A stretch of DNA of 37,671 bases from a virus. Below the pieces are notes generated by a model. The model was not told where the DNA came from. It saw only the letters and a program-made list of their open reading frames with translations, and searched no databases. Location: the IMG/VR virus record IMGVR_UViG_3300028920_000156, positions 1 through 37,671 of that record; one strand, given 5' to 3'. The position numbers and the translations under genes are program-made. Below are positions 2,529-24,798 of this stretch, in pieces. The first letter of the stretch is position 1; the number at the start of each line of letters is the position of its first letter.

Positions 2529-2879
2529 ACTACACTATTATACCCTCTCTCAACGCGTGTGAGCCCGGTAACTGGGTAGGGCTAAAACACTAGTACATGG
2601 CTAAAACAAGCTGGAAACGGCTATTAACTAGCATATGGTGGCCGTGAGGAGAGCTATGCGGGTGTGTGTGGTAGTTGCGTGCGTGGGGTGTTGGGGTGCT
2701 AGTATGTGTGTGAATTGGGTCTCAACGCGTGTGAGTATCGTATTCCCGTGTAAGACCCCCCCCCTACCCCTTCGCCAACCCCCCGGGCCTGTTTCTCATC
2801 GTAAGCTGGGAGGTACACCCCTACCCAATTACAGGGAATTTGGGGCATTTTTTTACTCATTGTTTATGAGTTTGCCTAT

Positions 2880-3056
2880 TTGGATATATTATATATGGAA
2901 TTTTTTGCCAATATATATTATATACACTACAGCAGCCTGGCGTTTTTATTTAATTTTCGACAGTTGGTTCCGTGCTGGTAGAAAATATTATATACAAAAT
3001 TTTCCGAATTCACACTACAGTTATATGGGCTTGACTGCTTGGATATATTATATGCA
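2880..3056 (+). repeat. Four AT-rich ATATTATAT motifs
   Basis: GGATATATTATAT near 2882 and 3042, AATATATATTATATAC near 2910 and AAATATTATATAC near 2980 are four variants of one AT-rich core. CACTACAG also occurs twice, after the second motif and before the fourth. They could form an unwinding tract or phage-specific promoters; none has a well-spaced -35 box. Confidence 0.45.
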
Positions 3057-3122
3057 GGATTTTTGTTGAAACCTTAAGAATATATTTTTATATTTTATTA
3101 AGATTTTAGAAAGGTGGTAATA

Positions 3123-3383
3123 ATGGAACAGACGATACTTGAAGAAGCGCAGCAGCTTGTTTATGGTAATAGGGATAAGTCATATGGGACTGTGACAAGG
3201 AATTTTGATAAGGTGGCCAAAATGTGGTCTGCCATACTGGATACTGAGGTTACGGCTCATAAGGTGGGATTGTGTATGGTGGCTCTTAAGATTGCCAGGG
3301 AGTGCTATTCCAAGTCCAGGGATAACCTTGTGGATGGGGCAGGGTATTTCGCTACACTTGAGAAATTAGAGAAAGGGGAGTGA
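3123..3383 (+). CDS. DUF6378-like small phage protein (86 aa)
   Basis: First gene of the rightward run; ATG 3123 follows AAAGGTGG. Motifs in order: YGNRDKSYGTVTRNF (about 15-29), KMWSAILD, MVALKIARE and DNLVDGAGYFATLE at the end. The spacing of YG..NF, W, LKIAR and D..VD.AGY matches, from memory, the phage family DUF6378, an all-helical protein of unknown function. Alternative start GTG 3114 lies inside the ribosome binding site and is unlikely. Confidence 0.75.
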   Translation: MEQTILEEAQQLVYGNRDKSYGTVTRNFDKVAKMWSAILDTEVTAHKVGLCMVALKIARECYSKSRDNLVDGAGYFATLEKLEKGE

Positions 3384-3386
3384 ATA

Positions 3387-3785
3387 ATGGATTGTAAAAA
3401 GACAGGCGATGGAAAATACAGGGTTACGTATGGTAATTCCCAAGGTTTGAAAACTGGGTTGGATATAGACTTAGGCTTGATGGATAAGAATTTTGATGCT
3501 ATTAAGAAGCATCTTTATGAGAATGAGGAATTAAATACCATGAAAGCAATTATCATAGCCCAGCAAGAAGAAATAAAGGGATTGAAAGAGGAGAAGCCCA
3601 AAGCCCACCCGCTGGATGAGATGATATGGGATTTATCTAGAGTTGGACATGGAGTCCCAACTGTAAAATCCCTTAAAAAACTCCGCTATGAGTCTATCAA
3701 GTGGATGGGTAAAAAGTGTATGGTTGATGTAAACCAGATAGAAGCATGGATGAAAGAATTTGGACATGAGGACTGGATAGTATGA
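3387..3785 (+). CDS. Hypothetical protein (132 aa)
   Basis: Starts three bases after the previous stop, behind GGGGAGTGAATA. The N-terminal 45 residues look beta-rich (GKYRVTYGNSQG), residues 45-70 form a probable short coiled coil (IIAQQEEIKGLKEEKPK) and the C-terminal part is a compact helical W-containing domain (IDLSRVGHG region, WMGKKCMVDVNQIEAWMKEFG). No family recognised. Its stop overlaps the next start. Confidence 0.65.
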   Translation: MDCKKTGDGKYRVTYGNSQGLKTGLDIDLGLMDKNFDAIKKHLYENEELNTMKAIIIAQQEEIKGLKEEKPKAHPLDEMIWDLSRVGHGVPTVKSLKKLRYESIKWMGKKCMVDVNQIEAWMKEFGHEDWIV

Positions 3786-12357: not shown

Positions 12358-12678
12358 ATGTCTAAGAGATACTATGCAGTATATTATAAGGAAGAAGGAA
12401 GTATTTGGTCTGAATGGAAACTTGTAGAAAAATTTCTAAAAGAGAATAAAGGGCAAAAACTTCATAAAGGATTTTTCACAATCAGCGAGGCAAAATATTG
12501 GCTTTCTGAATTAGGGGAAAATGAACCTGTTGTAATGTGTGCGGTTCCTGAAAGAAGGGCGGACACATCAATTAACAGAAAGGCTAGAAAAGCTATAATG
12601 GAAATTTTCAGGTCTTACCCATCAGAAAACAAAAAATCCGCTTTAAATAAAATTTTAAATTTTATGAGAGAGCTATGA
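12358..12678 (+). CDS. Hypothetical protein (106 aa), RNase H1 hybrid-binding-like start
   Basis: ATG 12358 follows GGAGATTTAGA. Residues 4-52 read RYYAVYYKEEGSIWSEW, then KGFFTISEAKYWL. Spacing of YYAV, G.....W and K.F.t..EA resembles the RNase HI N-terminal hybrid-binding domain, but the match is loose and no catalytic RNase H domain follows. The C-terminal half is basic and helical. Could bind nucleic acid. Coupled to the next gene by overlap. Confidence 0.5.
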   Translation: MSKRYYAVYYKEEGSIWSEWKLVEKFLKENKGQKLHKGFFTISEAKYWLSELGENEPVVMCAVPERRADTSINRKARKAIMEIFRSYPSENKKSALNKILNFMREL

Positions 12679-13022
12679 GGCTGTTTGTTTACGGGACGTT
12701 AAAAAGAGGTTTCTCAAATCATAATATTCTTAAAAATTCTCTTTTCATAGAGGAAGACAGCATAAATGGTTTTCAGATGCATGACATGGGGAATTTCCCA
12801 GGAATTACCAAAAAAAGGAATTCTGTGGTTTATGGGGAAGTTTATGAAATTGATGAGATTACTCTTATGGATTGCGATTGTCTTGAGGGTTATCCTTTAT
12901 TTTATGATAGGAAAAAGGTCAAAACGAGAAAGGGTAACACGGCAACGGTCTATTTTTTAAAGAAATGCGATTTTCCTGTAATAAACTATGGTTTATGGCT
13001 TGACAAGAAGGTATATCATTGA
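12675..13022 (+). CDS. Gamma-glutamylcyclotransferase-like (AIG2/GGCT) protein
   Basis: 115 residues, starting MRLFVYGTLKRGFSNH: the YGTL loop (6-9) is the substrate-binding signature of the GGCT fold. FPGI, VYGEVYEID and the acidic turn DCLEGYP (about 68-74, with the glutamate expected to act as general acid/base) follow in the right order. Family enzymes release 5-oxoproline from gamma-glutamyl amines or peptides. Why a phage keeps one near packaging genes is unclear; other phages have them as accessory genes. ATG overlaps the previous stop. Confidence 0.85.
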   Translation: MRLFVYGTLKRGFSNHNILKNSLFIEEDSINGFQMHDMGNFPGITKKRNSVVYGEVYEIDEITLMDCDCLEGYPLFYDRKKVKTRKGNTATVYFLKKCDFPVINYGLWLDKKVYH

Positions 13023-13034
13023 TATACTATATGC

Positions 13035-13178
13035 ATGGAAGCCTATCTAATATCAGGGGAAGTAATCTTTATTACGAAAGAAGAGGCGGTTGCGTTGCTT
13101 GAAATGGGCGTCCCTATACAAAAACCAGTTTCACATGAAATAGAAATACCCGAGTATTGTGAAGAAGAAACAGTTTAA
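13035..13178 (+). CDS. Hypothetical acidic peptide (47 aa)
   Basis: ATG 13035; product MEAYLISGEVIFITKEEAVA, then EMGVPIQKPVSHEIEIPEYC and ends EEETV. Beta-hairpin followed by a helix. No clear ribosome binding site. The frame is complete and overlaps the next small gene by 20 bases. Confidence 0.45.
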   Translation: MEAYLISGEVIFITKEEAVALLEMGVPIQKPVSHEIEIPEYCEEETV

Positions 13179-13317
13179 CGTCAGATTAAACCACAAAGTA
13201 ATAGAAGACCTAAAAAATTTTCTCTCAAAAGAATTATTGCCTCACGAGTCTGAGGCCATATTCGTTCAAAAAGCGATTGTCGAAAGAATAACAAGACTGC
13301 GTAATGGCAGGGTTTAA
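13159..13317 (+). CDS. Ribbon-helix-helix-like DNA-binding protein (52 aa)
   Basis: GTG 13159 start. KKKQFNVRLNHKVIEDLKNF gives a strand (FNVRL) and first helix; SEAIFVQKAIVERITRLRNG gives the second helix. This strand-helix-helix order, size and polarity match Arc/MetJ-type dimeric regulators. It ends inside the start of the large terminase gene. It might autoregulate the packaging genes; assignment is by pattern only. Confidence 0.5.
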   Translation: MKKKQFNVRLNHKVIEDLKNFLSKELLPHESEAIFVQKAIVERITRLRNGRV

Positions 13318-16300
13318 ATTAAATATAAGCAGAGAGGCCGATTCGCTCATAAATGAGCATATTGACGTTTATCGCCGCGCAAACAAATACAGATTTAATA
13401 ATATTCCCCAATATGCTGAAATTTTAAACGATTTCTACGGCAAGCTTGTAAAAAAAAGGATTGAAAAGCTTAGAAGAATAAAAGAAAACAGGACGAATAT
13501 AATACCAGTCATGTCTCATCTTTCTAACAGGGAGAACTTGGTTGACTTGATGATTCACTGGGGATGGACGTTTGACCCTAGATTACAGCCAATAGGGGTT
13601 ACGTCCACTATTCCGTGGATTCCATGGCCTTCGCAGGTAGAATTTATTCAATGGTTTTATGAATTATACCTTAAAAATGAAGGCGGATTAATAGAGAAAA
13701 CCCGCGACCAGGGGGCCACATGGTTATGCTGCATGATAGCTATACAGGAATGGAGATGGGAAGAGGGGTTTATTGGCGGCTTCGGGTCTAATAAATTTGA
13801 GTCTGTAGACAAGAGGGACAATCCCAGGTGTATATTTGAGAAACTGCGGGGAATTCTAAGAACTCTTCCGAACTGGTGGTTTCCCAAAGAATGGGATTTC
13901 AGGAAGCATGACAAAATAGCAAACCTTGTAAATCCTGAGAATAGGGCCAATATATCTGGTGAATCCGGTAAAGAGATTGGGCGGGGAGGCCGGTATTCCT
14001 TCTATGTAGTAGATGAAAAAGCTTCGCTGGAATTTCCTAAAATGGCCGATGCCGCCCTTTCTCTTGCCACACCCTCTCAGTTTGATCTATCAACTCCTCG
14101 TGGAATGAATGATTTCGGACAAAAGCGTCAATCGGGAAAACATAAAGTGTACACATTTCATTGGCGGGATGACCCCAGAAAGGATGAGGAATGGTATGAA
14201 CACGAAAAAGGGCGTCTTGACCCAGTTATTGTGGCTCAAGAAATTGATATTGATTATCACGCGTCTATTGAAGGACTGTTTATTGAGCCTGAGTGGGTTG
14301 AGGCGGCTATGCGCATCAAGCTGGAGCCTCGCGGTATTCGTAGCGGTGGACTGGATGTTGCCGCTGGCGGCTCGAATAAAACGGCGCTATGCTTACGGGC
14401 TGGCCCGGTGGCGAGAGTTTTTGAATGGTCAATAGAGAATGGAAATGAGGTGGCACATAAGGCAATTGAATTATGCAACGAGCATGGGATCGAGTATCTG
14501 CATTATGACCGCATAGGAGTTGGACACGCCATATACTCCGCGTTTGAGTCTACAGAAAGAGAGATGCACTTTACAAACTATGGTTTAGAGGCTGGCGATA
14601 GGGCCAGTGACGAATTTTACCCCGAATTTAACAAATTTGGGCATGAGATATTCTTTAATGCTAGAGCCGAATGGTGGTATGTTCTTTCCCAGAAATTCAA
14701 AAAAGTGTACGAAAACAAAAAATACAACCAAAGACACCCGGACGAAGAGTTGATTTCGATTGAGCCAAATCAAGAGCTAAAGAATCAACTTTGCGCTCCA
14801 ATGAGATTTACCACTGAAGGTGGTAAGATAAAATGTGAACCTAAGACAATGATGAGAAAACGGGGGATTAAGTCTCCGGATTGTTTTGTCGCCGGGACAA
14901 AAGTCAGAACACCTAAAGGAAATGTGGCTATCGAAGATTTGAGAATTGGAGATGTGGTTTGCACTCCTGTTGGGAATAGGAAAATCATAAAAACATGGGT
15001 TACAACTACTTCTAAATTGACAGAAACCACGTTTTCTAATGGAAAAAGACTAATAGGAAAAGGAAAGCATAGGATATTTACTTGGGATTCAGGGTGGGTA
15101 AGACTAGACTCTCTTATATTGGTTAATTATATTGAAACAGATGGACTGTATAGGAGGTTGAGTTGGGCGATAAGAAGGTTATTTACAAAGGAGAGTCGTT
15201 CTTCATTCAAACATCTGGTAGATATTATCAGTCAGGAAGGAAGGATGCTCAGGAGAGACTTCTTCACAGAAGAATCTGGGTTGACAATTTTGGGGAAATT
15301 CCAGAAGACATGGTCGTTCATCATAAAAATGGTGACTGGAGGGATAATTCCTTGGAGAATTTGGAATTACTTAAAAAAGGGGTTCATTGTAGAAACCACA
15401 CCAAAAAAAGAATGCGAGACTCGGAATTTAGGGAAAAAGCAATTAAAGCTCTCAGAGAAAATTCAAAAAAAGCCGCAAAATGGCATTCATCTCAAGAAGG
15501 AAAAGAGTGGCATAGAAACCATGGAAAAACCTCTTGGGAAAAAAGAGAAAGATATACACTCAAATGTGCTCAGTGTGGCAAAGATTTTGAAACTTTTTTT
15601 CCAAAAAGGACTAAATTTTGCTCAAATAAATGCTGGCAAAAAAATACGTACCATAAAAGGTGTAAGATTTCAAAGACTTGCGTACTTTGTGGGAAGACTT
15701 TTAAACACAATAAATACAGGAATCAGAAATGTTGTTCCAGAAAATGTGCGGCAATTTACCGTTTCAAAAACAAAAGTTTATAACCTAACACTTGATAAAG
15801 ATAACATCTATTACGCTAATGGAATTCTAGTGGAGAATTGTGCCGATGCGATGGTCATGGCGTTCCTGAAACGGGATGCGGGGAACAAGCATGTGGTAGA
15901 TGATTACTCCGATGTCAGCTCCATTTGTACTGAATTAGACCTGAGCTGGAGGAATTTGCGTAGTCACAGGCTGCTTAATTACGGGGCCGTATGCCTATCA
16001 AAGGACTTGCAAATAGAATGTCTGTGCTCCGTATGGGATGAATACGATGGGGTTTTATATGTCCATACTGAAAAAACATTCCCTATTCCAGATGCAAGAG
16101 GAATTGCCGAGTTTCTCAATTCAACCATGAGGCTGCAAGAGGTGGAGTGCGAGAGGCTTATGGGTAACACGGAGATGTTCTTTGAGGATAAAAAAACCGT
16201 AATGAAGAACATAAATGACGAATTATGGCTAAAAACGTCAAGATTTCAGTCGGTTAAATTAAGAGTTCCAAGAAAATATGATATGATGGGTAGTATAGCT

Positions 16301-16606
16301 ATATTAAATGAAATGGTTCAAAACAAGCGGATAAGGATAAATGTGACTTGTAAAGAATTAAATCGTCAATTAACAGGCTGGAGGGTTTCTAAAGGCAAGG
16401 TAGTGGCCGGCGGAATGAAGGAGGCTCTTCTTATGACTGTTTGTGACTTAGTAAAAGTGATACCTTTGAAGGAAATTAGGAAGCGCATTGAATATCCACG
16501 AGTAATACCAGCACTGTCAAAACCAACCAGAGCGATTAAAGAGGTTGGTCGCCCATATAATGGGCTTGACGAGCTGGCTAAATTAAAGGAGAAACAAGAT
16601 GAGTAA
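13304..16606 (+). CDS. terL: Terminase large subunit, interrupted by an intein
   Basis: 1100-residue precursor. ATPase part: adenine-binding-type PWPSQVEFIQW (107-117), deviant Walker A EKTRDQGATW (131-140), Walker B YVVDEKA (234-240) with catalytic E238. Nuclease part: first acidic residue in SGGLDVAAGG (D351), then SPD-CADAMVMAF, the third nuclease motif, split by the intein between D526 and C846. After splicing the protein would be about 781 residues, longer than the usual 450-600. The extra C-terminal 200 residues look like a second RNase H-like domain (GAVCLSKDLQIECLCSVWDE ... LLMTVCDLVKV). It powers DNA translocation and cuts concatemers at the portal vertex. Confidence 0.9.
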   Translation: MAGFKLNISREADSLINEHIDVYRRANKYRFNNIPQYAEILNDFYGKLVKKRIEKLRRIKENRTNIIPVMSHLSNRENLVDLMIHWGWTFDPRLQPIGVTSTIPWIPWPSQVEFIQWFYELYLKNEGGLIEKTRDQGATWLCCMIAIQEWRWEEGFIGGFGSNKFESVDKRDNPRCIFEKLRGILRTLPNWWFPKEWDFRKHDKIANLVNPENRANISGESGKEIGRGGRYSFYVVDEKASLEFPKMADAALSLATPSQFDLSTPRGMNDFGQKRQSGKHKVYTFHWRDDPRKDEEWYEHEKGRLDPVIVAQEIDIDYHASIEGLFIEPEWVEAAMRIKLEPRGIRSGGLDVAAGGSNKTALCLRAGPVARVFEWSIENGNEVAHKAIELCNEHGIEYLHYDRIGVGHAIYSAFESTEREMHFTNYGLEAGDRASDEFYPEFNKFGHEIFFNARAEWWYVLSQKFKKVYENKKYNQRHPDEELISIEPNQELKNQLCAPMRFTTEGGKIKCEPKTMMRKRGIKSPDCFVAGTKVRTPKGNVAIEDLRIGDVVCTPVGNRKIIKTWVTTTSKLTETTFSNGKRLIGKGKHRIFTWDSGWVRLDSLILVNYIETDGLYRRLSWAIRRLFTKESRSSFKHLVDIISQEGRMLRRDFFTEESGLTILGKFQKTWSFIIKMVTGGIIPWRIWNYLKKGFIVETTPKKECETRNLGKKQLKLSEKIQKKPQNGIHLKKEKSGIETMEKPLGKKEKDIHSNVLSVAKILKLFFQKGLNFAQINAGKKIRTIKGVRFQRLAYFVGRLLNTINTGIRNVVPENVRQFTVSKTKVYNLTLDKDNIYYANGILVENCADAMVMAFLKRDAGNKHVVDDYSDVSSICTELDLSWRNLRSHRLLNYGAVCLSKDLQIECLCSVWDEYDGVLYVHTEKTFPIPDARGIAEFLNSTMRLQEVECERLMGNTEMFFEDKKTVMKNINDELWLKTSRFQSVKLRVPRKYDMMGSIAILNEMVQNKRIRINVTCKELNRQLTGWRVSKGKVVAGGMKEALLMTVCDLVKVIPLKEIRKRIEYPRVIPALSKPTRAIKEVGRPYNGLDELAKLKEKQDE
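14882..15838 (+). other. Intein in the TerL nuclease motif (319 aa)
   Basis: Residues 527-845 of the precursor. Block A starts CFVAGTKVRTPKG (Cys1 nucleophile) and IEDLRIGDVV; block B is GKGKHRIFTWDSGW with the conserved histidine; block F is VYNLTLDKDNIYYANG; block G is ILVEN followed by Cys+1. The penultimate residue is Glu instead of the usual His. Splicing parts occupy about 85 residues at the N-side and 32 at the C-side. The 200 residues between them are Lys-rich and low in recognisable motifs (IQKKPQNGIHLKKEKSG) because that DNA encodes an HNH endonuclease in another frame. Insertion at an active-site motif is typical for inteins. Confidence 0.9.
15163..15783 (+). CDS. HNH homing endonuclease nested out of frame inside the intein
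   Basis: TTG 15163 has GGAGG (15153-15157) five bases upstream and is the first possible start after TAG 15151. 206 residues: LLHRRIWVDNFGEIPED then MVVHHKNGDWRDNSLENLEL (50-69), the HNH core with H53/H54, N62 and N66; a central GKEWHRNHGKTSW signature common in phage HNH proteins; then two zinc ribbons, CAQCGKDF...FCSNKC and CVLCGKTF...CCSRKC. Its stop at 15781-15783 falls inside intein block F. It fills precisely the gap between the two splicing halves. Presumed role: cut intein-free terL alleles and so spread the intein. Confidence 0.9.
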   Translation: MGDKKVIYKGESFFIQTSGRYYQSGRKDAQERLLHRRIWVDNFGEIPEDMVVHHKNGDWRDNSLENLELLKKGVHCRNHTKKRMRDSEFREKAIKALRENSKKAAKWHSSQEGKEWHRNHGKTSWEKRERYTLKCAQCGKDFETFFPKRTKFCSNKCWQKNTYHKRCKISKTCVLCGKTFKHNKYRNQKCCSRKCAAIYRFKNKSL

Positions 16607-16820
16607 AATAGTAGAGGTTAAACAAGAGAAAAAATGGGAAGAGGATAGTTATGCCAGAACCCTTGCCGAGGCCAGAGCGATAAAAAATGACCCGGTTAAG
16701 TTGAAGATGGCTAAAGCGGGAGCCAAGAGAATCTTGGAGGAAGAAATGGACAGGATAAGTGGTCTTAAATCCATCGCTTCCATGAAAGAGAAAGCAATAA
16801 AAAAGATAAAGAAAAAATGA
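16599..16820 (+). CDS. Small charged helical protein (73 aa)
   Basis: ATG 16599 overlaps the end of terL, and its stop overlaps the next start. Lysine/glutamate-rich (VEVKQEKKWEEDSYARTLAE, MKEKAIKKIKKK), with all-helical prediction by eye. No family recognised. It links packaging and glycan genes in one coupled chain. Confidence 0.65.
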   Translation: MSKIVEVKQEKKWEEDSYARTLAEARAIKNDPVKLKMAKAGAKRILEEEMDRISGLKSIASMKEKAIKKIKKK

Positions 16821-17440
16821 GCGCAAATCAATTAGCACTTGATAATCAAAACAAAAGACAGTTATCGCAGTTTTTTTGCGATTTGCACAGTGTTTTCAAT
16901 TTTCCTTATGGCGAGCATCGCGTCAAGTGGTTTATATCATTTGGCGCGCTACTCTATTTCATAAGGGATAAGAACCTTGGTATTCCATTTCAACAGGATT
17001 ATGACATCTCTATAATTGGACGAATAGACACTCATATGTTTAGAAAGCATTTGATTCAGTCGGGGTTTGAGATAATAAGTGAGTTTGCAAATGATGTCAC
17101 GAATGAGCCGTTTCAAATAGTGGCAAAGCACAGATTTGGACAGATAATTGACGTTTATTTCTGGGTTGATTCCTGCGGATATTTATGGCATACATACCGC
17201 CAAGGAGAGGGGTACAAGTTTAAAGGAACGCCAAAATATGCTTTTGAGGGAGAAATAGTCAAATATAAGTGGAATGAGAATTCCATAGAGCTGAATTTTC
17301 CGGCCAAATACGGCACTCTTCTGGATTTATGGTATCCAGGATGGTATATACCAGATGTACAGTTTGGTCAGTCAAGCGCAGAGGCTATAAGAGAAACTGC
17401 TAGTTGCGCTAATTTATCAGAGGTGCTTCATGGGACTTGA
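16817..17440 (+). CDS. LicD/fukutin-like transferase 1
   Basis: 207 residues. FISFGALLYFIRDKNLGIPF (about 40-59) followed by QQDYDISII is the nucleotidyltransferase motif of the LicD/fukutin group (G.LL...R....I..D.DiDi, metal-binding aspartates D62 and D64). Later VYFWVDSCGYLWH, FPAKYGTLLDLWYPGW and YIPD match the family's C-terminal PxxxxxxLxxxYG-W arrangement. Family members move phosphocholine, phosphoethanolamine or sugar phosphate from a CDP donor onto glycans. A CTP-type cytidylyltransferase gene at 26269 could make such a donor. The end LSEVLHGT overlaps the next ribosome binding site. Confidence 0.75.
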   Translation: MSANQLALDNQNKRQLSQFFCDLHSVFNFPYGEHRVKWFISFGALLYFIRDKNLGIPFQQDYDISIIGRIDTHMFRKHLIQSGFEIISEFANDVTNEPFQIVAKHRFGQIIDVYFWVDSCGYLWHTYRQGEGYKFKGTPKYAFEGEIVKYKWNENSIELNFPAKYGTLLDLWYPGWYIPDVQFGQSSAEAIRETASCANLSEVLHGT

Positions 17441-17735
17441 ATCAGGAACAAAAATAGTATGTGATAGGTGTAAAAAAGTAATAAGGGATGTGAAAAATCC
17501 CATAAAAATACATCATATAACCTGCATGGATTGCGTCTTAGAGCAAAAGGTGTCGGAAAATCTTCCATTAGAGCTTAAAACTGACATGAAATTTGAGTAT
17601 GTCATAAAGGATGGAGCACCGTTATTGGTGATTAAAATAAGAATAGAGAAGATGGGGGTTATAGACCTCGGTGTTTCAAGGAGCCAATTAGAGACTTGGG
17701 TTGGTGAAATGAAGGAAATTGAGGCTAAAAAGTGA
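17430..17735 (+). CDS. Small zinc-knuckle protein (101 aa)
   Basis: ATG 17430 overlaps the LicD-like gene and has AGAGGT 8-13 bases upstream. CDRCKKVIRD (11-20) and CMDC (about 34-37) form one zinc site; the rest is a beta-rich domain (KFEYVIKDGAPLLVIKIRIE) with a C-terminal helix. No enzyme motif. Possibly a scaffold or regulator for the adjacent glycan enzymes. Confidence 0.6.
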   Translation: MGLESGTKIVCDRCKKVIRDVKNPIKIHHITCMDCVLEQKVSENLPLELKTDMKFEYVIKDGAPLLVIKIRIEKMGVIDLGVSRSQLETWVGEMKEIEAKK

Positions 17736-18556
17736 TTTCAAAAGAGAGGGTGCTGGAAGTAAATCGTATTAGCTGGCGCAAACAGCATACGACCGCAGTA
17801 TTTGACTCAACCATGGTTCACATGGGATGGAAGGTCATGATTTATATTCCTAGGGCCAGGTATTTAAAAAAGCGATTTAACTACAAAAGACTTGTTGTGG
17901 TATGCAATAAAAGAGACAAATACTTATGGAATGACGTGGCTGATGAATTTGAATTTAATGAAAGAAGAAGTCGGTGGCCATATATAGGCCCTGAACCATT
18001 GCTTCCTGATTATGTGAAGAAGAAATACGGTTGTTTTTCTCTTCAGCACCCACCAAGATATAAGGGATTGGCATACGGAAACAATTTTACCCATATAGAA
18101 TACGGGGAAGAGAAAGGCGAGCGATATGATTTAGCCATTAACGCGTCAAGGAATTTTCAGCTGGGCGCGAAAGATTATGGGCTTTTGCTTGATTTTTTGG
18201 GTTATAAAAAAGTATGTTTTGTAGGTGATGGTTATTATGTCCCCGGGGCAGATGATTTTAGGAATTGCAGCATGGATAAAGTGTGTAATGCTTTGAGGAT
18301 GTCAAAATTTTATTTCGGCCCGATGTCTCCAACCGCTCACCTTCCCGCTCTAACAGGCACTAGCAGAATACTATGGGGAAGAGGGATGGAATGTGACCCG
18401 TTTACAAATAACAGAACGCTTCGGTATGTCTATGGGAAAAAATGGAATCCTTTTAAAGTTAAGACCGAATTTATGCTAAGTGCCCGCAAATTTAAAGTAA
18501 AAGACATGGCGAGGTTTATTTTAACTTGTTTTGGCGAAAGATTTAAGTACGTATGA
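17732..18556 (+). CDS. Glycosyltransferase, GT9/heptosyltransferase-like (274 aa)
   Basis: GTG start overlapping the previous stop. The C-terminal half contains VCFVGDGYYVPG, then MSKFYFGPMSPTAHLPALTG (about 192-211), which has the layout of the GT-B nucleotide-sugar site of ADP-heptose transferases (FIGPdSG..H.A.alG). The N-terminal half has YKRLVVVCNKRDKY and YDLAINASRN. A weak assignment to GT9 rests on that C-terminal motif. It would add a sugar in the same pathway as the neighbouring GT2-type genes. Confidence 0.55.
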   Translation: MISKERVLEVNRISWRKQHTTAVFDSTMVHMGWKVMIYIPRARYLKKRFNYKRLVVVCNKRDKYLWNDVADEFEFNERRSRWPYIGPEPLLPDYVKKKYGCFSLQHPPRYKGLAYGNNFTHIEYGEEKGERYDLAINASRNFQLGAKDYGLLLDFLGYKKVCFVGDGYYVPGADDFRNCSMDKVCNALRMSKFYFGPMSPTAHLPALTGTSRILWGRGMECDPFTNNRTLRYVYGKKWNPFKVKTEFMLSARKFKVKDMARFILTCFGERFKYV

Positions 18557-19191
18557 ATGTTGATATACTTATTCCAACCTGTAAACAAGAGGTAAATTCT
18601 TTAATAAAGGAACTTTTGATTACCAATGGTAATTATAGGATAATAAGCACATGTCTTATGATTAGTGCCGCACAAAATAGGAACGCCGCTTTAAGTTCGG
18701 CAAAATCAGATATTGTTATTATGATGGACGATGATATGACCGGGTTTTATCCAGAATGGTTAAATGAGATGATTGAGGTTATAACGGGAAATCAGGACAT
18801 AATTTTATTGTCAGCCAGATTATTACATCCGAAAGGATTTGGTCATATGGGAATTAAAAAACAAAAGCAAGGTCGTCCTTATGTGGCTCAAAATAATAGA
18901 GTTTCTACAGCATGTTTTGCTTTAAGAAGAGATATTATTATGAAAAATAATATAAAATTTGATGAAAATTTCGTTGGAAGCGGATACGAGGACACTGATT
19001 TTATGATGCAAATATCTCAAAAACTAGGAAAAGAAAGGGTTTGGATAAATGATAATGTTGAGTTGATGCATAATAACGAGATGAAAAATCAAGGCGGCCC
19101 TTTATGGGAAAAAAATCATAAATATTACAGAAGCAAATGGCCTGATGATATGGCGGTCGTAGGACAACAGGATTGGACAGCATGGAGATAA
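18553..19191 (+). CDS. GT2-family glycosyltransferase (212 aa)
   Basis: Overlaps the previous stop. VDILIPTCKQEVNSL (3-17) is the first strand and loop of the GT-A fold; AAQNRNAALSSAKSDIVIMM leads to the DDD metal/donor site (MMDDDM, about 57-62); FVGSGYEDTDF (about 140-150) is the acceptor-side ED motif typical of GT2 catalytic bases. Ends with a WxxK-rich segment. It would be soluble as no membrane helix is seen. Donor sugar unknown. Confidence 0.85.
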   Translation: MNVDILIPTCKQEVNSLIKELLITNGNYRIISTCLMISAAQNRNAALSSAKSDIVIMMDDDMTGFYPEWLNEMIEVITGNQDIILLSARLLHPKGFGHMGIKKQKQGRPYVAQNNRVSTACFALRRDIIMKNNIKFDENFVGSGYEDTDFMMQISQKLGKERVWINDNVELMHNNEMKNQGGPLWEKNHKYYRSKWPDDMAVVGQQDWTAWR

Positions 19192-19841
19192 CATTTACAT
19201 GCACAACATCCAGAAGGATTAGGCTTTTTTTTAATATGATGGAAAGCTTTTTAAACTGTTGTGAAGATAAGGATATGATTACTCGCTGGATTGTGAGTGA
19301 TGACAGAAGCTCTGAAAAAGACATTAATAATATGAAAAAAGCGTTCCCGTTTTTAGAGATAGTTAGACCTGATAAAAACGGTCAAGCGGCAAGTTTAAAT
19401 AAATTATTTAGTTGTGTAAAAACTGATTGGATATTTCATTCAGAAGACGATTGGGTTTTTTTAAGACGAGATAAAATTATCACAAAATGTTTGGAAATAC
19501 ATAAAGATGATGATAGAATAAGGAATATAATTCTTACCAATTGGAGGGGGGTTAAGGTTAATTCGGGAAATCTAGAATATATAATTCACTATCATCATCC
19601 GTCACTTATTAAAGAAGTGGCAAGAACGTGTGATGCCAGGTGGCTTGGGTACTCCTTGAACCCGGGATTACAACATTTAAAAACTATAAAGAAATATGGG
19701 GAATACAATCTAAATTTCAAACAAAATAGCAGATTTTGGGACAGGCTTTTAGCATTTAGATATTTGAAAGATGGTTATAAACGAGCAAGTTTAATTGGAA
19801 ATTATGTCATGCACACCGGGGGGAGGTGTACTTTATATTGA
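19182..19841 (+). CDS. GT2-like glycosyltransferase (219 aa)
   Basis: ATG 19182 lies within the end of the previous gene; TTG 19173 is a weaker choice. MEITFTCTTSRRIRLFFNMM and RWIVSDDRSSEKDIN form the N-terminal GT-A half; IFHSEDDWVFLRRD (about 87-100) carries the ED/DxD-type metal site; C-terminal LGYSLNPGL and FWDRLLAF follow. Similar short GT2-like proteins occur in glycan clusters. Its end TLY-stop overlaps the next TTG start. Confidence 0.75.
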   Translation: MEITFTCTTSRRIRLFFNMMESFLNCCEDKDMITRWIVSDDRSSEKDINNMKKAFPFLEIVRPDKNGQAASLNKLFSCVKTDWIFHSEDDWVFLRRDKIITKCLEIHKDDDRIRNIILTNWRGVKVNSGNLEYIIHYHHPSLIKEVARTCDARWLGYSLNPGLQHLKTIKKYGEYNLNFKQNSRFWDRLLAFRYLKDGYKRASLIGNYVMHTGGRCTLY

Positions 19842-20590
19842 AATTTTGCGCATTTTATAAGGTTTTTTCAGGCCATGAGTGGCTTGAGGCTAGTATTAGG
19901 AGCGTGTTTCAATATGTGGAAAAAGTAATAATTTCATCGTCAGAGCTAAGTTGGGGCGGAGTTGGAAACAACACCTGTATTAAAGTAGTGGAAGAACTAA
20001 TGCGGATAATTCCTAATATTGATTTAATTAAGTGTAACACAACAGACCAAAAATCTCAATGCGAAGAAGGATATAGATATATTAGGGATAAATATGGCCC
20101 GGATTATATTATGCTTGTTGATTCTGATGAAATATGGACTGACGATGCTATGGCGAAAGCTAAGAGACATATACAATTCCATCAAAATTACCCAGCATAT
20201 AGATGTAATATGTTTACATACATAAAAGATAAACATTATCGAGTAGAGCCGTATGAACCACTTCAGCCTGTTGTGTTTATAAAAAGTGATGTGGATTATT
20301 ACGGAGATGACGCCAGATGTTGCGGCATTAAGCCGTTTTATAGGATGGAGGATGTTTTTATTCACCATTTTCCATACGTAAGAAATAATTTCACCGATAT
20401 TTTAATAAAATTAATAAATTCACACATCTCTGAGAAACAGGAGCATGAGCCATTGGATTATTGGGTTTCTGAGAAGTGGTGTAAATTGCCCGATGTCAAG
20501 GATTTTCACCCGGCAATAGGATTTCAAAATAATTGGCATTCGATAAAAGTGGTTGATGATGGTGATTTGCCAGAGGTATTGCATGGATGA
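19838..20590 (+). CDS. GT2-like glycosyltransferase (250 aa)
   Basis: TTG 19838 is preferred: GGGAGGTG precedes it at a good distance and it overlaps the previous stop as TTGA; GTG 19826 sits inside the ribosome binding sequence. KFCAFYKVFSGHEWLEASIR and YVEKVIISSSE are typical of WcaA-like GT2 starts. YIMLVDSDEIWTDDAMAKA (about 91-109) carries the DSDE metal site. Late histidines (FIHHFPYVR) may contact donor phosphate. It ends LPEVLHG, as the LicD-like protein does at 17440. Confidence 0.75.
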   Translation: MKFCAFYKVFSGHEWLEASIRSVFQYVEKVIISSSELSWGGVGNNTCIKVVEELMRIIPNIDLIKCNTTDQKSQCEEGYRYIRDKYGPDYIMLVDSDEIWTDDAMAKAKRHIQFHQNYPAYRCNMFTYIKDKHYRVEPYEPLQPVVFIKSDVDYYGDDARCCGIKPFYRMEDVFIHHFPYVRNNFTDILIKLINSHISEKQEHEPLDYWVSEKWCKLPDVKDFHPAIGFQNNWHSIKVVDDGDLPEVLHG

Positions 20591-21116
20591 TTGCTTATTA
20601 TTAAAGGGTGAGCTTCGGTTATTAAAAGACTATTGTGAAAACAAAGTGGTTGTTGAACTAGGGACATATACCGGAGAGTCTGCAAAAATAATAGCTTCTG
20701 TAGCCAAAGAGATTTACACAGTTGATGTTTATGACATTCCGATTAAAAGTGATTTTGGGGAGGAGTGCAAAGTCAATTACAGCTATGAAGATAATCTCCG
20801 TAAGTTTTCTAATTATAAAAACATCCATATTATAAAAGCGGTAAGTTGGCAAGCGGCAGAAAATTTTGACAATAATAGCTTGGATGTTGTTTTTGTAGAC
20901 GCATCGCACATTCAATCTAACGTCACTAGGGACGCCATTAATTGGAAGGTTAAATTAAAAAAGGGCGGTTTAATGTTGTTCCATGATTACAACGCGTGTC
21001 ATAAGGGTGTTGTTGATGCTGTAAATAAGCTTATAGCGTGTGATAATGATTTTGAAGAAGAGCCTTTTAGGAAAGTATATAAGAATAATTCTATTAAAAT
21101 TTTAAGAAGAGTATAG
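20583..21116 (+). CDS. SAM-dependent methyltransferase (177 aa)
   Basis: ATG 20583 chosen, within the preceding gene end and behind AGAGGT. VVVELGTYTGESAK (about 22-35) is motif I of class I methyltransferases; YTVDVYD supplies the ribose-binding acid; LDVVFVDASHIQSNV and LKKGGLMLFHDYNACHKGV match the Methyltransf_24 pattern (vDg.Hsy..v..D, ..pGG.i..hDy). Related enzymes methylate sugars in O-antigen-type clusters. Here probably a glycan O-methyltransferase by context. Confidence 0.8.
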   Translation: MDDCLLLKGELRLLKDYCENKVVVELGTYTGESAKIIASVAKEIYTVDVYDIPIKSDFGEECKVNYSYEDNLRKFSNYKNIHIIKAVSWQAAENFDNNSLDVVFVDASHIQSNVTRDAINWKVKLKKGGLMLFHDYNACHKGVVDAVNKLIACDNDFEEEPFRKVYKNNSIKILRRV

Positions 21117-21126
21117 GGGGCGATGC

Positions 21127-21807
21127 GTGGAAAATTATACCAAATTATCAAATAGGCTCAAAAAAGCAAGCTACCCTGACAATCATCATTATGATGTTAA
21201 AACTTTGGAGCCAATCGGAGTTATGAAGGATAGGTGGGATATAATAGAAAAGGCTCCGGAGTTTAAAGCTGGCGGCAAATTTTTGGATGTGGGTTCCAAT
21301 AAAGGCTTTATTAGCTTAAAACTGGCTATATATTATGAGAAAATAGTTGGATATGAGCCTTTAAAGGATTTGGTGTCCCTTTCATCTGATATTGCGGCTG
21401 CTCATAAAATTAAGAACATTGAGTTTTTGGAGGGATATTATGAGGACATCCCTGATGATGAGGTGTATGATGTTGTTTATTTAGGCAATTGCCATCATTA
21501 TATATTTAGGAATTGTGTTACAAATGGGGAGAAATTTTATGAGTGGACTGAAAAGTTGAAAAAAATATGCTCTAAATATTTAATAATAGACGGAGTTCAT
21601 TCTGGAAATGATTTTGCGATGAGGGGGATGGGTAGAGACGAGGGCTGGCCTGAAGGGGTTTTAAAGGAATATAGCCTGTTTAACCTGTCAGAATCTCTTG
21701 AAAGTGATTTTATGCTAATAAAATTCATTAAGAATGGAATTGGGTATTACAATGTGAAAAACAATTCCGGGAGGCATATAGCTATTTATGAAAGAAATAC
21801 ACCCTAA
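21127..21807 (+). CDS. SAM-dependent methyltransferase (226 aa)
   Basis: GTG 21127 behind GGGGGCG. Motif I GGKFLDVGSNKGFISLKLA (about 49-67), acidic VGYEPLKDL next, then DVVYLGNCHHYIF (about 117-129) at the position of motif IV, with NCHHY perhaps contributing to substrate binding. C-terminal IIDGVHSGNDF. Different subgroup from the preceding methyltransferase. Substrate unknown; sugar or lipid-linked intermediate by context. Confidence 0.8.
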   Translation: MENYTKLSNRLKKASYPDNHHYDVKTLEPIGVMKDRWDIIEKAPEFKAGGKFLDVGSNKGFISLKLAIYYEKIVGYEPLKDLVSLSSDIAAAHKIKNIEFLEGYYEDIPDDEVYDVVYLGNCHHYIFRNCVTNGEKFYEWTEKLKKICSKYLIIDGVHSGNDFAMRGMGRDEGWPEGVLKEYSLFNLSESLESDFMLIKFIKNGIGYYNVKNNSGRHIAIYERNTP

Positions 21808-22270
21808 AGATTTGTTAAAAAATCTTCATATAGACGGAGAACTTAGGAGATGGGATTTGATTGCAGCATATGTATTTGTTAAGGATTATCTTGAAAAAGG
21901 ATTTAAAAATAAAATATATGATTACATTTCGTATAAAAAGTGGCTACATATAAATAAGACGAGAAATATTGCGAATTATTCTATCTATGACCTGGTCTGT
22001 CAAAGACAAATGTTTTTCTCTCTCATTTTAAATATAAATAAAAATGGATTTAATCCTGATAATCCGATTATTCTAACAGAAAATGGTATGATTTTTGACG
22101 GTCTTCATAGGTCAGCCGTCATGCTTTATTTTGATAGAAAAATCCCTTATGTAGTAAGAGAATGTGGTTCCGGTATTGGTTTTGATATAAATTGGTATGA
22201 AAAAAATATTCTTGATAAATATGTGAAACGAATAAAACAGGAATACAGTTTAATAATGGAGGACGTATGA
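21788..22270 (+). CDS. ParB-like DGxHR-domain protein (160 aa)
   Basis: Overlaps the preceding gene by 20 bases. NPIILTENGMIFDGLHRSAV (about 92-111) is the ParB/sulfiredoxin-type loop: strand, GxxxDGxHR, then helix, with D104, H107 and R108. Such domains bind nucleotides (CTP in ParB, ATP in sulfiredoxin) and also occur in polysaccharide clusters with unknown role. The N-terminal half is helical and unique. Not a plasmid partition protein: no helix-turn-helix follows. Confidence 0.65.
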   Translation: MKEIHPKDLLKNLHIDGELRRWDLIAAYVFVKDYLEKGFKNKIYDYISYKKWLHINKTRNIANYSIYDLVCQRQMFFSLILNINKNGFNPDNPIILTENGMIFDGLHRSAVMLYFDRKIPYVVRECGSGIGFDINWYEKNILDKYVKRIKQEYSLIMEDV

Positions 22271-23190
22271 CTTATATACCAGAAATTGAGTTGAATTTTT
22301 CCAATATTTGCGGTGCTAATTGCTTTATGTGCTCAAAACCTCATGGGTGTGGCAATATACAATTTATGCCTCAAGAAGTTTTTGACGCGCTAATAGGGCA
22401 GTTAAAGGACTGTGAAGTGGGGCAGTTTCAAACGTCAGGTAATGGTGAGTGTTTATTAAATCCTAATTATTTGAATTATTTACGAACTTTAAAAAAAGAG
22501 TTTCCCAACGTAGAAAGATGGTGTTATAACAATTTTTCGATGATGAGGTATGAAATTTCTAAGCAGATTATAGATGAGGTGCTTATAAACAAGATGCACG
22601 CCAGAGTGGAAAGCCTAGACCCCGAGGTTATGAGGAAATCATCTCGTTTAAATTTTGATTTAGTGATAGAAAATATAAAACACTTTCTTCAGTTAAATGA
22701 TAAAAACCAAGTTCCTCTAATAATTTTATACAATAATCCCGGCGATTATTATAAAAAATGTATGAAGGTATTGGGCAAGCCTCCGCAGTATTGGCCTTTT
22801 GGGGATAGGACGGATTTTCCGAATGAAGAGCAAGATATAAGAAATTTTTTCCAACGATGGTCTAATTATCCAATTAATTCGTTCAGGATAAATCATTGTT
22901 TGTGGGCGGAGCGAGAAAACTGTCAACCAGACACTAAGGAGCCGTGTCCTAAAATAAATGTAATAAAAAGGGTTATGTGGGTTAGTCCTAATGGCGATGT
23001 TCAAGGGTGTTGTTATGATGATACGCAGTCTCACTTTGTTTTGGGAAATATATTAAATACGCATATAGCCGATATTTTTAATGGGGAAGAAAGGGCTGAG
23101 TTTATTCGTAAAATAGAAAATAGGGAAATAACAGATTACCCTTGCGTGAATCCCAAATGCTGTAATTTTGATGAAGGTTTGGAAAAATGA
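22267..23190 (+). CDS. Radical SAM protein with SPASM-like end (307 aa)
   Basis: ATG 22267 with GGAGG upstream, overlapping the previous stop. CGANCFMC (15-22) is the CxxxCxxC motif that binds the catalytic 4Fe-4S cluster. QTSGNGECLLNPN (about 58-70) stands where GGEP-type SAM contacts lie. The C-terminus (CPKINVIKRVMWVSPNGDV, GCCYDDTQSHFVLGNI, CVNPKCCNF) resembles a SPASM auxiliary-cluster domain. Likely a radical enzyme modifying a sugar, peptide or lipid. Confidence 0.8.
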   Translation: MTYIPEIELNFSNICGANCFMCSKPHGCGNIQFMPQEVFDALIGQLKDCEVGQFQTSGNGECLLNPNYLNYLRTLKKEFPNVERWCYNNFSMMRYEISKQIIDEVLINKMHARVESLDPEVMRKSSRLNFDLVIENIKHFLQLNDKNQVPLIILYNNPGDYYKKCMKVLGKPPQYWPFGDRTDFPNEEQDIRNFFQRWSNYPINSFRINHCLWAERENCQPDTKEPCPKINVIKRVMWVSPNGDVQGCCYDDTQSHFVLGNILNTHIADIFNGEERAEFIRKIENREITDYPCVNPKCCNFDEGLEK

Positions 23191-23810
23191 ATTATAGCAA
23201 GATTGTTGGTGGTGGTGGTGGTGGGTATAATGTTGGAGCTGATTGTTATTGTGATGGTAAAATTGCGGTTGTTTTAATTCAAAAATGCGCTACACAATCA
23301 ATAAAAGCAGTTCTTGAAAAGGATTTTGAGCGTAAAAAATTGGAAGTATGGGACGGCGTTGAATATGCGGCTATGATAAGAAATCCTGTTGAAAGGTGGA
23401 TTTCTGGTATAGCGACTCATTTTGCTAATCGTATTAATAATGGAATTTCAACATTTGAACTGGTTGAGGAATTTTTAAATGATAAAGACGGTGTAGATTA
23501 TTTGTTTAAAACAGTTAGTTTTGAAGAGCATACGAAACCACAGCATTTATTCATAGAGCAAGTTAAAGATAGGGTTAATTTGTTTCCATTAGATTATTCT
23601 GAAAAGTTTTACGACTGGATTCGTAGTAATGGATATGATGTGTGCAACGCGCATATTCATAATACATTGCATTTTGACAAAAACTCATATCATTATAAAA
23701 TTTTTGAAAAAATAAAAAGTTTAATGACATCGGAAAATACTGACAAAATAAATAAATTTTTTAAAACCGATATGGAACTTTACTTAAAAACAAGGGGAAA
23801 ATATGGATAA
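23187..23810 (+). CDS. Sulfotransferase-family protein (207 aa)
   Basis: VVLIQKCATQSIKAVL (28-43) matches the 5'-phosphosulfate loop of PAPS-dependent sulfotransferases (K.G.TS with K33, S38), and MIRNPVERWISG (63-74) matches the 3'-phosphate motif R.P..R..S. H109-type basic residues around EEHTKPQHLF are typical of the Sulfotransfer_2 group. It should transfer sulfate to a carbohydrate hydroxyl. A run GGT x5 plus GGG (23208-23225) encodes six glycines near the N-terminus. Overlaps both neighbours. Confidence 0.75.
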   Translation: MNYSKIVGGGGGGYNVGADCYCDGKIAVVLIQKCATQSIKAVLEKDFERKKLEVWDGVEYAAMIRNPVERWISGIATHFANRINNGISTFELVEEFLNDKDGVDYLFKTVSFEEHTKPQHLFIEQVKDRVNLFPLDYSEKFYDWIRSNGYDVCNAHIHNTLHFDKNSYHYKIFEKIKSLMTSENTDKINKFFKTDMELYLKTRGKYG

Positions 23811-24798
23811 AACTCCAACTACCAGATTTGTTATAGAGCCATTATTAAACTGCAATATCAAATGCAAGATGTGCTATCATTTACATAAGTACGAGAACTG
23901 GAAGGATTATACAAAGACTTTAGAGCAGGTGCGTAATGAAATTGACGAGGCAAAAGACAGGGGTAATGATTATATGGATATTACAGGCGGCGAGCCTACC
24001 ATGTATAAAGACCTAATCTCTTTAATAAGATATGCCACAACAAGCGAAATAAAATCCTGTATCATAACCAATGGTATAGTAAGCGAATCGAAAGCTGCGG
24101 AAATACTGGAAGCTGGAATAAATGATTTTCTAGTGTCCAGGCATGGATTGGAAAAGACGCATAATTTTATAACTAATTACGACAAGGCTTACGAGAAGCA
24201 GGTGAGATTTCTTGACCAGATTGCAAAAAATATGAGTTTTAGGTTTAACGGCGTAATAACCAAATTTAATCAGGAGGATTTTTTAAAAATTGCAGAGGAA
24301 ATGGTTATATATCAACCAAGAGTTGTAAACATTATAAACATGAATCCACATCATGAGTGGATGGATAAAAGTATTGAAACGCAGGATGTTGTGGCTGATT
24401 TAAGAAAGGCTCAGCCAATACTTGAAGACACGATTGAATTTTTAGAATACAATCATGTTGTAGTGAATCTTCGATACTATCCAATGTGTAGAATAAAAGA
24501 GGAGTATCGGAGATGCGTTTGTAATGACCTGCAAGTGATTTTTGACCCTTATGAATGGGATTATAACATCACCCCTAAAACTTTTGAGGCTTTTAGAAAT
24601 TGGGGGATTAGTACGTCACTGGCCAACGAAGAGAAGGGCGAACCTTGTTGCAGATGTGGTTTGCAAAATGTCTGTGGGGGAATAAACAAGAGTTTTCATA
24701 AGGCGGCCAATGAATTATATGGAGAGGTTTGCGACCCCCAACCCCCGGTAAAAGAAGAAGATTTTTACATGTATAGGAAAAATCAGGGCATGAAGTAG
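23803..24798 (+). CDS. Radical SAM protein with C-terminal cysteine cluster (331 aa)
   Basis: EPLLNCNIKCKMCYHL (12-26) carries C17, C21, C24 for the 4Fe-4S cluster; MDITGGEPTMYKDL (about 59-72) is the GGEP SAM-binding motif; SRHGL and FNGVITKFN are further barrel strands. C-terminal CCRCGLQNVCGGINK is a SPASM/twitch-type extra cluster. Canonical radical SAM layout. Reaction unknown; a second radical enzyme in a sugar block suggests unusual sugar chemistry such as epimerisation or dehydration. Confidence 0.85.
   Translation: MDKTPTTRFVIEPLLNCNIKCKMCYHLHKYENWKDYTKTLEQVRNEIDEAKDRGNDYMDITGGEPTMYKDLISLIRYATTSEIKSCIITNGIVSESKAAEILEAGINDFLVSRHGLEKTHNFITNYDKAYEKQVRFLDQIAKNMSFRFNGVITKFNQEDFLKIAEEMVIYQPRVVNIINMNPHHEWMDKSIETQDVVADLRKAQPILEDTIEFLEYNHVVVNLRYYPMCRIKEEYRRCVCNDLQVIFDPYEWDYNITPKTFEAFRNWGISTSLANEEKGEPCCRCGLQNVCGGINKSFHKAANELYGEVCDPQPPVKEEDFYMYRKNQGMK

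Follow-up and report, generated by a model that had tools for sequence, protein, structure and literature searches.

A viral terminase intein that probably divides splicing and mobility between two overlapping genes

The gene for the terminase large subunit (TerL) in a 37.7-kb virus record, analysed over its whole length and called the window below, very probably carries a mobile intein whose splicing and mobility reside on two overlapping genes. The TerL frame would specify a class-1-type Hint domain, split by a disordered, neutrally evolving spacer of ~190 residues. Read in the -1 frame, the same bases would give a homing endonuclease of the HNH_3 type that contains zinc ribbons and is translated from a start codon of its own. 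The features are listed in Table 1.

Table 1. Features of the terL gene and its nested element; positions are those of the window
Feature	Position	Strand	Basis
N-extein, N-terminal part of the terminase large subunit	13304-14881	+	tblastn, phrog_2
Intein, 319 aa, Cys1 to Asn319, TerL frame	14882-15838	+	Hint_2, Intein_splicing, TIGR01443, Foldseek
Intein N-terminal splicing half, blocks A-B	14882-15147	+	pLDDT ~96; Cys1 and block-B His invariant (125/125)
Shine-Dalgarno-like AGGAGG, 5 nt before the HNH TTG	15152-15157	+	sequence
HNH endonuclease gene, -1 frame relative to TerL, TTG start, TAA stop	15163-15783	+	HNH_3, AF2, selection in relatives
Overlap DNA in the intein frame: stop-free, amino-acid-neutral, predicted disordered spacer	15163-15750	+	pLDDT, dN/dS of relatives
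HNH_3 catalytic domain, residues 33-72	15259-15378	+	HNH_3; H53, H54, N62 and N66 invariant (37 sequences)
First zinc ribbon, C135, C138, C153, C157	15565-15633	+	all four Cys invariant
Second zinc ribbon, C173, C176, C191, C195	15679-15747	+	Cys at least 90% conserved
Intein C-terminal splicing half, blocks F-G	15752-15838	+	TIGR01443; pLDDT ~95; terminal Asn 125/125
TerL C-extein, first residue +1 Cys	15839-16606	+	sequence

Results

The window terL gene spans positions 13304-16606. Its frame is free of stops over 1100 codons (13304-16603), as a preliminary description of this DNA had stated, and the N-extein has tblastn matches in at least 654 phage records, the top ones annotated as TerL. 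The intein comprises TerL residues 527-845 and is inserted into the C-terminal nuclease motif of TerL (KSPD/CADAM). The preliminary description had placed it at 14882-15841; the element and its start, at Cys1, stand, but the intein proper ends with the Asn at 15838, and 15839-15841 is the codon of the +1 Cys. The ~8 kb between terL and the portal gene (16817-24798) contain two glycosyltransferase-2-like genes, methyltransferases and two radical-SAM genes, possibly a cassette for modification of the capsid, the DNA or the host envelope.

The intein matches Hint_2 (Pfam, 1.8e-10), TIGR01443 (intein_Cterm, NCBIfam) above its cutoff, and Intein_splicing (Pfam) at 5.8e-7, which is below the curated cutoff. 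In an AlphaFold2 (AF2) model, its two Hint halves have a Hint fold resembling solved inteins (Foldseek, E down to 5.8e-7). Cys1, the block-B His, the terminal Asn and a Cys, Ser or Thr at position +1 are each present at all 125 nested loci of the survey described below, as in class 1 inteins. The block-B Thr is found at 120 of these loci and is Lys in the window; the penultimate His is found at 64 and is Glu in the window, and some relatives have such changes too. Judged by its residues and its modelled fold, 14882-15838 is a class-1-type intein, and the invariant catalytic residues together with the fold suggest that it should splice out and restore TerL.

The HNH frame runs from TTG 15163 to TAA 15781-15783 and encodes 206 aa. 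The product matches HNH_3 (Pfam, 1e-13) and, over its full length, the phage HNH endonucleases of phrog_15471 (2.7e-25). It has the H-H-N-N residues of HNH_3 and two zinc ribbons, both of the CxxC...CxxxC type; the second ribbon is missing in one relative, L002. AF2 predicts the structure with a mean pLDDT of 94.8, and a structural search of the PDB gave no significant match. Upstream, the frame is closed by a TAG at 15151, which cuts off anything farther 5'. The TAA spans the V-Y-N codons of intein block F, and the HNH stop lies within block F at 122 of the 125 nested loci. At 55 of the 125 the stop is encoded by a Tyr-Asn or Tyr-Asp dipeptide of block F (TAT AAY or TAT GAY), and TAG serves as the HNH stop at none of them. 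In the intein frame, Pfam and NCBIfam contain no match to an endonuclease, only the Hint and intein models. The filler also matches phrog_30251 and phrog_35162, which are not to be read as protein domains; these families probably consist in part of such out-of-frame translations, or of members with the same layout. The preliminary description had reported a full HNH protein with two zinc ribbons and its own Shine-Dalgarno (SD) sequence, situated between the splicing halves, with its stop in block F and in-frame filler devoid of endonuclease motifs. All of this was borne out.

An alternative is a group I or II intron containing an HNH reading frame, as in I-HmuI, and spliced at the RNA level; I-HmuI (1u3e) is the only protein found with the HNH sequence profile, as a weak and distant relative (E=0.0026). 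We give this explanation a negligible probability: the ends of the element coincide exactly with translated intein blocks, which follow the intein frame. The intron was rejected in a search of positions 12500-18000 against Rfam, which found nothing even with E allowed up to 1.

The arrangement recurs in other viruses. Separate tblastn searches with the intein frame and the HNH frame converged on the same spots in four named phage records: Rhodobacteraceae phage LS06-2018-MD07, gut phage MT838676, Acinetobacter phage Highwayman and Tetrasphaera phage TJE1. In each of the four, TerL is unbroken and the HNH is read in frame -1 relative to it, and in the three of the named phages with this layout that are annotated, the HNH gene is unannotated. 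Profile searches of IMG/VR and GTDB genomes yielded at least 201 loci, which were classified with profiles of the intein N half, the intein C half and the HNH; all survey counts are lower bounds. For at least 154 HNH matches, the surrounding intein is a single contiguous one; the phase is -1 in every case, and phases 0 and +1 do not occur. After removal of near-copies, there were at least 125 nested loci, at least 24 loci without a recognisable intein nearby, and at least 20 split or partial ones. Searching viral contigs with the HNH only, and thus blind to the intein, gave 57 nested cases among the 80 loci listed. The converse search with the intein N half (a six-row alignment), blind to the HNH, listed 67 loci: 58 were nested in the same phase, six were HNH-less mini-inteins of the same intein family (128-165 aa; L241, L256, L258, L267, L268, L276), one was split, and two were cut by the contig end. 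An in-frame or decayed endonuclease was found at none of these 67 loci. A search of viral contigs with the whole TerL returned no match for the window, because the window has no close relatives.

The host terminases are diverse: among 44 sampled, 37 matched phrog_2, 28 Terminase_6N and 23 Terminase_3. One nested element (L173) is in a Thermoplasmatales archaeon contig, Bacteroides contigs also carry nested elements, and a Methanimicrococcus contig contains a partly broken relative (L174); these contigs are presumably proviruses. The viral contig L119 apparently has two nested intein/HNH elements (1368-2297 and 2673-3485). L190 (1827-2885) and L045 (1460-2485) have a second intein-like insertion without a recognisable HNH.

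The intein frame contains no stop across the nested HNH at any nested locus. Free-standing HNH homologues have a mean of 6.1 stops in the same frame, and 92% have at least one. Synonymous shuffling of the codons of the window HNH left the intein frame open in 0.4% of cases (mean, 2.55 stops); for the 125 loci, the median was 3.75% per locus. Met followed by a codon starting with A, a pair that forces a stop in the intein frame, accounts for 0 of 164 cases in nested HNH genes, compared with 22 of 60 in free ones. Chance is excluded, because an open intein frame and an HNH gene co-recur in at least 125 non-redundant loci and in one phase. The stop content of the HNH code explains why only the -1 phase is seen: the third frame has ~19 stops in nested and free-standing HNH genes alike, so the intein frame alone is readily kept stop-free.

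The two frames differ in how they evolve. Over 19 close pairs of loci, substitutions at intein codon positions 1, 2 and 3 numbered 377, 332 and 688 in the intein N half, 598, 1226 and 748 in the HNH core, where intein position 2 is HNH position 3, and 66, 53 and 184 in the C half. The substitution peak moves from intein position 3 to HNH position 3 within the overlap and then back. For ten pairs of relatives, with each locus entering once, the HNH frame had a dN/dS of 0.49 in the overlap (bootstrap, 0.33-0.68) and the intein frame one of 1.10 (0.88-1.36), figures to be read with the very small SS class and the multiple hits per codon of several divergent pairs in mind. They describe relatives, as the window itself has no close one. 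In the AF2 model of the window intein, pLDDT is ~96 for the Hint halves and ~45 for residues 100-280. The substitution pattern, the dN/dS ratios and the model together argue that the overlap is a real nuclease gene above a stop-free, otherwise unconstrained spacer. This agrees with the preliminary description, in which one frame keeps the nuclease and the other need only remain open. Homologues without the insert, which it had proposed looking for, exist in the form of the six mini-inteins.

The HNH might instead be an inactive relic, no longer in use, with the open frame a leftover and the insertion merely tolerated. The insert has indeed been lost from, or was never present in, some homologues. 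Their form, however, is that of clean mini-inteins and not of decay in place, and routine breakage of the HNH under a preserved intein frame was not seen. The HNH match is at least 140 aa long in 156 of the 160 contiguous inteins listed; of the other four, two have fragmentary HNH matches and two are second inteins of their locus without an HNH. With purifying selection on the HNH frame, invariant HNH residues and first-ribbon Cys, and recent transfers (see below), we regard a relic as highly unlikely and prefer a nuclease gene in use.

How might this gene be expressed? A start codon lies between the upstream stop, at a median distance of 42 nt, and the conserved HNH core at 123 of the 125 nested loci. 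At 113 of them the short open stretch contains an ATG, and these cluster 18-24 nt upstream of the core. A strong SD motif is present at 17 of the 125 loci and in 6 of 250 control frames; for any SD motif the values are 34% and 19%, a moderate enrichment. From the placement of starts and SD motifs, the HNH is most likely translated separately, from its own start inside the terL mRNA; that the window uses a TTG at this point speaks against it. Ribosomal -1 frameshifting out of the TerL/IntN frame, which would make a TerL-IntN-HNH fusion and not a free nuclease, fits with the HNH being at -1 relative to TerL in every contiguous case, this being the phase of common frameshifts. The phase is already accounted for by stop content (~19 stops in the other frame versus 2-6 here), and in fractured relatives the HNH is found in other phases. 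Given also the correctly placed starts, the excess of strong SD motifs and the closure of the HNH frame a short distance upstream, frameshifting is very unlikely, and internal initiation is favoured.

Evidence for mobility comes from empty sites. TerL of Highwayman bears a 981-bp element. The TerL DNA on either side of it has matches in at least 41 further Acinetobacter phage records, and none of these records spans 80% of the filled gene; when Acba_21 (99.5% identical) and MRABphi22 were aligned to Highwayman, exactly the element was missing. Gut phage MT838676 and Bacteroides phage BS-TP2 differ by a 954-bp insertion at the intein site. Two near-identical phage pairs thus provide alleles that lack the intein precisely at the insertion point. 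The empty site DNH/GIDAVRYY becomes DNH/intein/CIDAVRYY in Highwayman, and YIDA/LRYALEK becomes YIDA/intein/CRYAIEK in MT838676. In both comparisons the +1 Cys is restricted to the filled allele, as if it had been copied in along with the element. The loci L104 and L109 show, at the level of sequence identity, that intein and HNH travel jointly between unrelated hosts, because their inteins are 88% and their HNHs 73% identical in TerLs that are only 23% identical. Correlations between intein, HNH and extein distances are weak (Mantel, 0.07-0.31); most pairs are saturated, so the argument that intein and HNH stay together depends on single pairs of close relatives. A FastTree mapping of states gave 25 poorly supported changes and was not used for counting origins. 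The mobility of a homing intein was thus observed in relatives and not in the window itself.

Some relatives have a broken intein frame, with the HNH between IntN-TerL and IntC-TerL (L170, L172, L176, L035, L040, L082, L192, L273); from their gene order, these are apparent split inteins with the same HNH family. In Vibrio phages 1.238.A (L006, 2714-3919) and 1.245.O (L007, 2714-3919), the TerL frame stops soon after the intein N half; next come an HNH frame that lacks annotation and a hedgehog/hint gene annotated on its own. This order is probably that of another split terminase intein with the HNH between its halves. Fractured genes, as Dassa et al. are said to have described them in 2009, have a split intein whose two halves are separated by a homing endonuclease gene. 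Here, too, the endonuclease is a separate gene between intein halves, and a minority of the window's relatives are built in this way (L170, L172, L176 and L273 among them). In the window and the other contiguous loci, by contrast, the intein frame continues through the nuclease gene without a break.

Discussion

Canonical homing inteins contain a LAGLIDADG endonuclease or, as in some DnaB inteins, an in-frame HNH endonuclease. The terminase elements resemble them in the Hint domain, the position of the endonuclease between blocks B and F, the insertion into a conserved motif, and homing. In canonical homing inteins, however, the endonuclease is as a rule encoded in frame and leaves the protein as part of the excised intein, whereas the window has it as a separate overlapping gene in the -1 frame, with neutral, disordered filler in frame.

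The closest published relative is the ShiLan domain, one of the hidden HNH insertions in actinobacteriophage DNA methylases (Arsenault, Gosselin, Gogarten 2025, PMC11855218). The ShiLan element and the Pacc40 insertion are out-of-frame HNH genes in methylases without an intein, and leaderless internal translation has been suggested by the ShiLan authors (PMC11855218). Like the terminase elements, ShiLan has an out-of-frame HNH with zinc fingers, a stop-free host frame and homing into conserved residues, and its +1 residue is changed towards Ser or Thr. These likenesses (PMC11855218) would also suit an out-of-frame HNH in a host protein that simply tolerates the insertion without splicing. We consider this extremely unlikely for the terminase elements. 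ShiLan has no splicing domain and is not thought to splice; in the window, the HNH is located in the loop of a full TerL intein, flanked by complete intein blocks that form a Hint domain like those of solved inteins, with invariant key residues. Moreover, the site is the nuclease motif of TerL, where an unspliced insert should be lethal. On overlapping frames, PMC11855218 cites a preprint by Gosselin on the 'non-canonical architecture' of actinobacteriophage inteins (10.1101/2025.01.02.630785). In the literature searched, no intein is described whose endonuclease gene lies out of frame; this 2025 preprint lay outside the search and may cover related cases. The caution in the preliminary description that related arrangements might already be described was fair, given the published out-of-frame HNH insertions without an intein (PMC11855218).

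The nested HNH belongs to the same nuclease family as the I-HmuI-type HNH_3 enzymes and the free-standing phage HNH endonucleases of phrog_15471. Those are free-standing or intron-borne, and in the majority of the free-standing homologues the overlapping frame is interrupted by stops. Free-standing HNH genes occur next to terminase genes in Acinetobacter phage BP10 and Sphaerotilus phage SN1. In BP10 (an Obolenskvirus), the HNH relative (L211, 2989-3630) is directly upstream of terS-terL; the intein carrier Highwayman is an Acinetobacter phage as well. The BP10 gene is a possible donor or derivative state of the nested element. In collaborative homing, introns are paired with neighbouring endonuclease genes (discussed in PMC10448857). 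A separate nuclease and a splicing element with one common target site are found here too, but an intein takes the place of the intron and encloses the nuclease gene.

We propose that the HNH nuclease would cut intein-less terL at the conserved nuclease motif, and that repair would copy the whole unit, together with the +1 Cys, into the cut gene. The element most likely arose from a TerL mini-intein whose loop was invaded by a free-standing HNH gene similar to those that neighbour terminases. Insertion at this point would cost little for a gene that is out of frame and brings its own start, as long as the intein frame remains open. A broader reading, to which we give somewhat less than even weight, is that these elements form a large, unrecognised class of terminase inteins. 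Free-standing HNH genes would have repeatedly colonised mini-inteins out of frame, in the only phase that the HNH permits, leaving the intein frame as a translated but meaningless spacer, and a break in this frame would give rise to split inteins. The class would then supply the intermediate that has been missing between two states, mini-inteins accompanied by free homing genes and fractured split-intein genes.

Current annotation, to judge by the three named phages, overlooks this class of out-of-frame HNH genes. Textbook inteins combine the splicing domain and the homing endonuclease in one protein; here the two are decoupled into two overlapping genes, a layout that parallels group I introns with their endonuclease reading frames and spans very diverse terminases. 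The elements constitute a natural case of overlapping genes with constraint on one frame and only freedom from stops required of the second, and they supply inteins that tolerate a long disordered insert. They also suggest a route by which homing genes enter inteins, and by which split inteins may possibly arise.
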